DNA of 64,000 nt from Xanthomonas vesicatoria ATCC 35937 (lineage in GTDB: Bacteria; Pseudomonadota; Gammaproteobacteria; Xanthomonadales; Xanthomonadaceae). The notes under the pieces are model-generated. The model was given only the letters and a program-made list of their open reading frames with translations, had not been told where the DNA came from and ran no database searches. This document shows positions 22,240-24,633 of the stretch, in pieces; position 1 is the stretch's first letter, and every line of letters begins with the position of its first letter. The translations under genes were made by a program, and so were the position numbers. The stretch is from NCBI RefSeq assembly GCF_001908725.1, contig NZ_CP018725.1:186001-250000 (forward strand), in the 5' to 3' direction.

Positions 22240-24633
22240 TCAGGAGTGACTCAGAACTCTTGCCAGTTGCCAGTTGCCATCGGCCAGCGCGGCCTGTGGC
22301 TTGGCCGACCGCGCCGGCGCGGCCGCGGTGCGCACTGTTGACTTGGCCGCGGTCTTGACCGCGACCGGACGCGAAGCGACCGGGCGGACACGTGCTTGCG
22401 CAGCTGCGGCCGACTCGTCCAGCTTGAACACCGACACCGCCTCGGCCAGATGACCGGCCTGCTCTTCCATCGAGCGGGCGGCCGCAGTGGCTTCTTCCAC
22501 CAGCGCAGCATTCTGCTGGGTGGTCTCGTCCATCTGGGTGATAGTCTGATTGACCTGCTCGATACCGGTCGACTGCTCCTGCGAGGCGGCAGAGATTTCG
22601 CCCATGATGTCGGTCACACGCTGCACGCTGGCCACGATTTCTGCCATGGTGGCACCGGCCTTGCGCACCAGCGCCGAGCCTTCGGCCACCTTGTGCACGG
22701 AGTCGTCGATCAGGCCCTTGATCTCCTTGGCGGCGCCGGCCGACCGCTGTGCCAACGTGCGCACCTCGGAAGCGACCACCGCAAACCCGCGGCCCTGTTC
22801 GCCGGCACGTGCCGCTTCCACCGCCGCGTTCAGTGCCAGGATGTTGGTCTGGAACGCAATGCCGTCGATGACCGAGATGATGTCGGCGATCTTCTTGGAC
22901 GAGGCTTCGATGCCGGACATGGTGGTGACCACCTGCGATACCACGTCGCCGCCCTGCGAAGCCACACCGGTGGCGCCGATGGCCAGCTGATTGGCCTGAC
23001 GCGCGCTTTCGGCATTCTGCTTGACGGTGGAGGTGAGCTCTTCCATCGAGGCAGCGGTTTCTTCCAGGTTGGCGGCCTGCTGTTCGGTGCGGTGCGACAG
23101 GTCGCTGTTGCCCGAGGCGATTTCGCCGGCTGCCGAGTTGATTGCGCTGGAGGAGAGCTTGATGCGACCGACGATGTCGGCCAATTGCTCGGCCGTGGCA
23201 TTGGCATCGTCACGCATCTGCGCGAACACGCCACTGAACTGGCCATGCATGCGCACGGTCAGGTCGCCGCGCGACAGCGCAGACAGCAGTGCGGAGATTT
23301 GCTCCAGGCTGCCGGCATTGGCATCCAGCAAGCCGTTGAGCTGCTGCGCCAGTTGCAGGAAGAAACCTTGCTTGCCGTCGGTTTCGACGCGACCGCTCAT
23401 GTCGCCACTGGCCGCGGCGCGCACGATGCGTGCGACTTCTTCTTCAACCTGGACTTCGATGGTGCGGTCGCGCCATTCGCAGACTTCGCCGGTGGTTTCA
23501 CCTTGCTCGTTCTTGATGCCGGTGACGGTTTGCGCCAGCACGACTTCGCCGAAGCGCTCTTCGAAACTGGTGACGCCGTCGCGCTCCAGTGCGGCGATGG
23601 CCTTGCGCACGGTCGCATCCGACAGGCCAAGGTAGCTGATGTGCTGGCCGATGACCTTGCCCGCGTCGAACTCGGGCGATGCCAGACGGATGCTGCTTTC
23701 GTACTGCGCCACGATCTTCTTGAAGGCATCGTTGGCGTAGATCATCACGCGGTCGGGATCGGTGATGAAGGTGCCGGTGGACGATTTGTCCAGCGCGGTG
23801 CGAATGCGCAGGTTCTCGTCGGCGATCTTCCGGTCGCGTTCGATCCGCTCCTTCAGATCGCGCTGCATGCGCTGCATGGAGCGCATCAGTTCGCCCACTT
23901 CGTCCTGGCCCTGCACGTTGATCTGGCCATCCAGCTTGCCGCCGGCGATTTCGGTGGCGGTGCTCACCGCGCCGCGCATGCTGCGCACGATCGAGCGGGC
24001 GAACAGGAACGCCAGGCCCAGGCCGCCGGCGATGCCGATCAGCAATACCACCAGGGTCAGCGTGACCGAGGTTGCGTGGACTTTTTCGGCCTTGGTCTTG
24101 GCCGCCTGTGCCAGCAGATTGTCCTCGGCGATCAACGCCGCCAGCGAATCCTTAGCCTTGTTGTGCAAGGTACGGGTTTCGCCAACGAAGGTGTCGATGG
24201 CGTCGTCGGGAAGATTGAGTTCCATCATTTCATCGACGCTGGCGTACGAGGCCGAAGCCTTTTTCCAGTCGGCGACGAATACGTCGAAAAGCTTTTTCTG
24301 TTGCGGGCTTTCGATCAGGCGGGGATAACCCTTGATCGTCGCCTCGATTTCACCGTTGAGCCGCTTGGCGCGGACCTTGGCTTCCTGCTTGACCGCATCG
24401 CTGGCGCGCACCAGATTTTGATAAGACGCATTCCGGTATTCGCCGAGCATGCCGCGCAGATCGCCGGCTTCGCGCACGCTGGACATGGTGTTGCCGGCCA
24501 GGTCGCGGGTCACATTGTTGAGCGATGCCAGGCCCGAATACGCGATGATTCCCTGCACCAGCATGATCAGCAGCACGATGCCGAACGCCAGCATCAGCCG
24601 CGGCATCAATTTCAGATTATTGATCCATTTCAT
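22240..24633 (-). CDS. Methyl-accepting chemotaxis protein MCP-1 (4HB-HAMP-PAS type), frameshifted C-terminal tail
   Basis: A 797-residue transmembrane receptor: TM1 about 11-31, a helical periplasmic domain to about 185 (four-helix-bundle like), TM2 about 190-210, HAMP, a PAS domain (TALDKSSTGTFI..., ending CEWRDRTIEVQ), further HAMP-like units (GDMSGRV, GDLTVRM) and the signalling hairpin with IDGIAFQTNILALNAAVEAA. The tail is unusual: it reads NWQ then LARVLSHS. A tandem 7-bp duplication (22261-22274) shifts the frame; removing one copy restores NWQEF and a stop at 22251. ATG 24633 follows GGGGGAA. The small secreted gene lies 82 bases upstream, perhaps in the same transcript. Confidence 0.95.
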   Translation of the reverse strand: MKWINNLKLMPRLMLAFGIVLLIMLVQGIIAYSGLASLNNVTRDLAGNTMSSVREAGDLRGMLGEYRNASYQNLVRASDAVKQEAKVRAKRLNGEIEATIKGYPRLIESPQQKKLFDVFVADWKKASASYASVDEMMELNLPDDAIDTFVGETRTLHNKAKDSLAALIAEDNLLAQAAKTKAEKVHATSVTLTLVVLLIGIAGGLGLAFLFARSIVRSMRGAVSTATEIAGGKLDGQINVQGQDEVGELMRSMQRMQRDLKERIERDRKIADENLRIRTALDKSSTGTFITDPDRVMIYANDAFKKIVAQYESSIRLASPEFDAGKVIGQHISYLGLSDATVRKAIAALERDGVTSFEERFGEVVLAQTVTGIKNEQGETTGEVCEWRDRTIEVQVEEEVARIVRAAASGDMSGRVETDGKQGFFLQLAQQLNGLLDANAGSLEQISALLSALSRGDLTVRMHGQFSGVFAQMRDDANATAEQLADIVGRIKLSSSAINSAAGEIASGNSDLSHRTEQQAANLEETAASMEELTSTVKQNAESARQANQLAIGATGVASQGGDVVSQVVTTMSGIEASSKKIADIISVIDGIAFQTNILALNAAVEAARAGEQGRGFAVVASEVRTLAQRSAGAAKEIKGLIDDSVHKVAEGSALVRKAGATMAEIVASVQRVTDIMGEISAASQEQSTGIEQVNQTITQMDETTQQNAALVEEATAAARSMEEQAGHLAEAVSVFKLDESAAAAQARVRPVASRPVAVKTAAKSTVRTAAAPARSAKPQAALADGNWQLARVLSHS
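22261..22274 (+). repeat. Tandem 7-bp duplication at the 3' end of MCP-1
   Basis: Two adjacent copies of TGCCAGT. The second copy puts the C-terminal codons of MCP-1 out of frame and replaces the terminal EF and stop by eight other residues. Confidence 0.9.

Follow-up and report, generated by a model that had tools for sequence, protein, structure and literature searches.

A 7-bp tandem duplication probably removed the CheR/CheB docking pentapeptide of a single chemoreceptor in Xanthomonas vesicatoria ATCC 35937

The C-terminal pentapeptide that serves as a docking tail in some chemoreceptors is described on 37% of the receptors of Xanthomonadales; it binds the methyltransferase CheR via its aromatic residues 2 and 5, its removal from Escherichia coli Tar or Tsr is reported to reduce methylation largely and to abolish chemotaxis, and strong responses are mediated by many receptors without such a tail (PMC7390727). 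The methylesterase CheB uses the same pentapeptide residues according to modelling (PMC8609364); some CheB proteins do not bind such tails, and no sequence mark is known that distinguishes those that do (PMC7698151). Enzymes tethered to one E. coli receptor are described as acting on nearby receptors (PMC2873904), and it has been called paradoxical that some receptors depend on the pentapeptide while others lack it and still work well (PMC7390727, PMC7698151). Here, we analyzed a window of 64,000 nucleotides of the plant pathogen X. vesicatoria ATCC 35937 (assembly GCF_001908725.1, contig NZ_CP018725.1, forward-strand positions 186,001 to 250,000; coordinates below are those of the window), in which one chemoreceptor gene, MCP-1, encodes an unusual C terminus. 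Our reading, to which we assign a probability of roughly three in four, is that slippage recently duplicated 7 bp near the end of this otherwise normal receptor gene, shifting its last codons and destroying the CheR/CheB docking pentapeptide.

The MCP-1 open reading frame (ORF; positions 22240 to 24666, minus strand), delimited by ORF reading, domain matches, and alignments, is 808 amino acids long when counted from the first ATG and 797 when counted from the ATG of the conserved M(K/Q)WINN. It comprises a 4HB_MCP_1 sensor, a HAMP domain, a PAS_8 domain (a match slightly under the cut-off), a HAMP_2 domain, and the signalling domain of methyl-accepting chemotaxis proteins (PF00015, residues 561 to 715), whose score of 187.1 bits against a cut-off of 34.6 makes the protein a member of that family. 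On the coding strand, the gene ends in ADGNWQLARVLSHS followed by a stop, giving NWQLARVLSHS in place of NWQEF, just as an earlier reading of this DNA from its letters alone (hereafter the sequence-only reading) had it. The derived end thus retains N-W-Q and not E-F, with eight other residues as substitutes, and the final five residues of the protein are VLSHS. As read from the ORF and its orthologues, the out-of-frame LARVLSHS and its stop (22240 to 22266, minus strand) replace the EF and stop of the orthologues, whose conserved GAG-TTC-TGA is found by comparison intact in another frame just downstream of the repeat (22251 to 22259, minus strand). The tail is shifted because of a perfect period-7 tract detected by a repeat scan, (TGGCAAC)2.9, 20 bp long, TTGCCAGTTGCCAGTTGCCA (22260 to 22279, minus strand); the two TGCCAGT copies to which the sequence-only reading had attributed the shift were located exactly at 22261 to 22274.

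The 3' end of the orthologous gene was readable in 31 of 34 other Xanthomonas genomes (one was cut by a contig end in G010, and the best matches in G019 and G020 were only 52 to 54% identical), and it encoded NWQEF in 30 cases and HWQEF in one. The longer ending, which would have refuted the sequence-only reading had it been natural to all orthologues, occurred in none of the 31, nor was a long tract present at the locus in any of them. Since every readable orthologue ends in one of these two pentapeptides, the long tail of MCP-1 is, as judged from these alignments, derived and private to this genome among the genomes compared, the closest of which by DNA were X. pisi (93.3%), Xanthomonas sp. 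Leaf148, and X. dyei (93.0% each). Named genome records gave the same picture, although they overlap largely with this set and so do not count as separate evidence. Outside the last residues, the MCP-1 frame is uninterrupted, with up to 98% identity to orthologues over residues 1 to 800. A simple count against nine relatives, not a branch model, gave 29 synonymous and 2 nonsynonymous private changes over 783 codons once the last 14 were set aside. The body of the gene therefore looks constrained at the sequence level, and no sign of decay was seen.

The local codons suggest how the duplication may have arisen. The Asp-Gly codons of MCP-1 are GAT-GGC, so that TGGCAA recurs at a distance of 7, and the longest period-7 run at the locus reaches 13 matching bases. 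The homology is shorter in the 31 orthologues because they carry GAC before the Gly codon (in one case GTC) and mostly use GGT or GGA for Gly; only two have GGC there and reach a longest run of 5, against 2 or 3 in the remaining 29. The 7-bp gain was probably produced by misalignment between the Asp-Gly and the Trp-Gln codons, which form a near-repeat. Either the longer homology would have invited slippage, or the first unit would have acquired its match in the course of the event or later. We infer that the duplication is recent, and the change appears to be a real yet unremarkable small mutation.

The tract stands out in its surroundings. Its 13 matching bases form the longest period-7 run of the window, and no run of at least 13 appeared in 40 dinucleotide shuffles of the window. 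The runner-up, a second perfect period-7 tract with a run of 12, spans 49799 to 49817, where the receptor ORF at 47432 to 49813 has its listed 5' end, and perhaps lies upstream of the true start. Shorter period-7 runs (at least 7) numbered 11 in the window against a shuffle mean of 6.2, so two-copy repeats are common, and among the 10 receptor ORFs in the window, 8 contain one or more perfect out-of-frame repeats with roughly two copies. The 23-bp pattern made of the tract plus GAG occurs once in the genome. A degenerate version of the tract pattern, which detects only this kind of tail, matched 1 of 149 genomes of the family, a set including just five other Xanthomonas genomes, and that one was the genome studied here.

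We also examined the adaptation genes of the cluster, all on the minus strand. Domain matches place CheB (a response regulator with CheB_methylest, ORF as listed) at 19502 to 21037 and the coupling protein CheW at 25411 to 25896. CheR, recognized by domain match and alignment, lies at 21168 to 22034 and has a beta-loop of the pentapeptide type (RGSGPNEG; R184, R194). It aligns without gaps to Salmonella CheR (1AF7, 1BC5) across the long beta-loop, and its R194 faces an arginine that would be Salmonella R197 if the chain starts at residue 11. A long beta-loop plus one arginine are described as the marks of a pentapeptide-binding CheR, the arginine contacting the tryptophan of the pentapeptide (PMC5907407). 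Three other CheR domains are present in the genome: two align with gaps at the loop, and the third, ca. 1 Mb away from the cluster, has a loop of equal length in which leucine replaces the arginine. Because the cluster CheR combines the long beta-loop with the matching arginine, machinery predicted to be able to read the missing tail is present in the genome. The claim of the sequence-only reading that the duplication removed a pentapeptide thus gains from both sides, from the orthologues and from a CheR of matching type encoded in the same cluster.

Six other receptors of the window retain their tails, as had been stated from the sequence. Read at the ORF ends, all on the minus strand, these are GWQEF (30446 to 32755), SWQEF (35930 to 38362), DWAEF (38459 to 40726), QWQEF (40915 to 43365), QWQDF (44462 to 47314), and SWHEF (50872 to 53229). 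In the whole genome, 9 of the 27 receptor ORFs read, fragments included, end in W-x-x-F, six of them within the window. In two further receptors, F replaces W at position 2: QFVTF (L026, G000:C1:1199281), which lies near a different CheR (L031), and QFARF (L022, G000:C1:718463). The cytoplasmic part of MCP-1 aligns without gaps over 337 to 361 residues with eight of the nine other receptors of the window and with one gap to the ninth, a tailed one; judged by these alignments, its signalling domain agrees in length with those of tailed receptors of the same cell. The gap-free alignments make mixed arrays of MCP-1 with tailed receptors likely. Most likely, MCP-1 would still assemble and signal, with enzymes docked on tailed neighbours of the same mixed array methylating it, as is assumed for tail-less E. 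coli receptors. That MCP-1 would be adaptation-poor, as the sequence-only reading suggested, is plausible, with precedents in the literature pointing in both directions. The behavioural effect is probably mild: a mild defect, rather than a dead receptor, would be expected because the gene body shows no decay, mixed arrays are likely, and tethered enzymes act on neighbours in E. coli.

In order to put this loss into perspective, we surveyed seven groups of tailed receptors in 24 of the 34 other genomes and the window (148 ORFs). Membership of a group was decided by the best hit, which lets in some paralogues, and the count covers ORFs that the receptor motif detected. Most ORFs (136 of 148) end in W-x-x-F, and 12 do not. 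Besides MCP-1 with its 7-bp duplication, the exceptions are two X. phaseoli ATCC 49119 receptors with single-base frameshifts relative to close relatives (G028; L139/L140), an X. dyei fragment with an unknown base, one ORF each of X. codiaei and X. floridensis with other ends, an X. bromi ORF ending in WQEY, an X. arboricola NL_P126 ORF ending in WQDL plus two further ORFs of that strain without a tail, and, in G024 and G022, two ORFs that matched their groups less well (76% and 65% identity). Alignment of the X. phaseoli genes to relatives showed no 7-bp gain in either, and the X. arboricola alignment ended before the tail. Thus, a multi-base duplication was found in MCP-1 alone, with 3 of the 11 other exceptions aligned to relatives and one of those alignments ending before the tail. 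The single-base shifts of X. phaseoli ATCC 49119, whose assembly is listed as 90% complete and 4% contaminated, look like sequencing errors. Among the variant tails, one aromatic motif position is changed in WQDL (X. arboricola NL_P126, L160/L161) and in WQEY and RQDF (X. bromi, L157, L112).

These error-like shifts bear on the possibility that the MCP-1 end is itself an artefact of sequencing or assembly and that the strain carries an ordinary tail; X. vesicatoria LMG911 was assembled with HGAP from PacBio RSII reads (PMC5323636). Nevertheless, the two synonymous codon differences next to the tract are consistent with a real history of this locus. Moreover, the usual long-read error is a single-base indel and not the gain of a perfect 7-bp unit, and we consider an artefact unlikely. 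A frameshift is also a common first lesion of decay, and the tail could be the first step in the pseudogenisation of an unneeded receptor; only the last residues are affected, however, the remaining frame is open and close to that of the orthologues, and private changes are overwhelmingly synonymous, which renders this explanation improbable. Selection in this lineage for a slowly adapting receptor would make the loss adaptive. Positive selection has been reported on Xanthomonas receptor genes in passages that do not concern tails (PMC3063832), and we regard adaptive loss as very improbable. It would be a special case of the duplication reading, not a competitor to it, so the likelihoods given here are not mutually exclusive. 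Against that reading weigh its basis in a single strain and a single assembly, the timing of the two synonymous codon differences, which could predate, accompany, or postdate the duplication, and the presumed neighbour-assisted methylation of MCP-1, which would be carried over from E. coli.

The sequence-only reading had gone further, proposing that a two-copy repeat could revert and make the tail switchable, that is, that copy-number changes toggle the docking tail within a population. The tract has features that such a switch would call for, being perfect over 20 bp and having a unit whose length is not a multiple of three, and hence frame changing; the conserved end codons are intact in the other frame, and the gene body has not decayed. 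With only 2.9 copies, however, it falls well below typical contingency tracts, it is absent from all 31 orthologues, and its degenerate pattern was confined to this one genome of the family. Nor does a short repeat by itself say much where most receptor ORFs of the window contain one. We therefore hold phase variation to be highly unlikely, and we give as little credence as to adaptive loss to the fuller proposal that a slippage-driven tract reversibly adds and removes the adaptation-enzyme tether of one chemoreceptor, so that cells of one clone differ in sensory memory. In the open-access literature, no report of a chemoreceptor pentapeptide frameshift was found under these words, and no direct parallel for short reversible duplications was found in the literature. 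The words pentapeptide, frameshift, and pseudogene are absent from an article on Xanthomonas chemotaxis (PMC9866238), and the tandem duplications of 26 to 116 bp described among lrp mutations were judged not to be reversible phase variation (PMC6786866). Switching is without support beyond the repeat itself.

Some further features of the sequence were recorded along the way. The genome totals 5,349,905 bases, divided among three contigs: a chromosome of 5,110,163 and two others of 192,558 and 47,184. The plasmid matches include tomato and pepper xanthomonads, but also citrus, lettuce, cabbage, and Pelargonium strains. Between two receptor genes, a homopolymer of 15 G (C on the minus strand) occupies 44128 to 44142, ca. 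90 bp upstream of an ORF resembling an exported protein (ATG near 44037, minus strand); at most 5 C were present there in four relatives where the stretch was located, and the homopolymer may be an upstream tract prone to slippage, or else its length may be a long-read error. Finally, an 81-bp unit is repeated 4.6 times with an 87% match at 56918 to 57288.

If the duplication is real, it amounts to a natural experiment, with one receptor without its docking tail beside nine tailed ones, in a genus that keeps the tail in all 31 readable orthologues. It could help in asking why some receptors cannot do without the pentapeptide when others function well without one. The loss reveals no new kind of system. 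Short-tandem-repeat contingency loci carry frame-shifting tandem units inside coding regions, as MCP-1 does, but here the copies are few and the tract is absent from relatives. Lai and Hazelbauer in 2005 reportedly made experimental C-terminal extensions of E. coli receptors in which, going by the title, the pentapeptide was kept and extended; MCP-1 likewise has extra residues past the normal chain end, whereas its pentapeptide is disrupted. With pentapeptide-bearing receptors such as E. coli Tar and Tsr (NWETF), MCP-1 shares the signalling domain, the C-terminal linker, orthologues ending in NWQEF, and a matching CheR in the cluster, and it differs from them in that the last two residues of the motif, the aromatic residue 5 included, are replaced by LARVLSHS. 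As a tail-less receptor in a cell with tailed ones, it resembles E. coli Tap and Trg (PMC7390727), but in those receptors the tail-less condition is the ordinary state, while MCP-1 lost its tail secondarily, through a frameshift seen in one genome.
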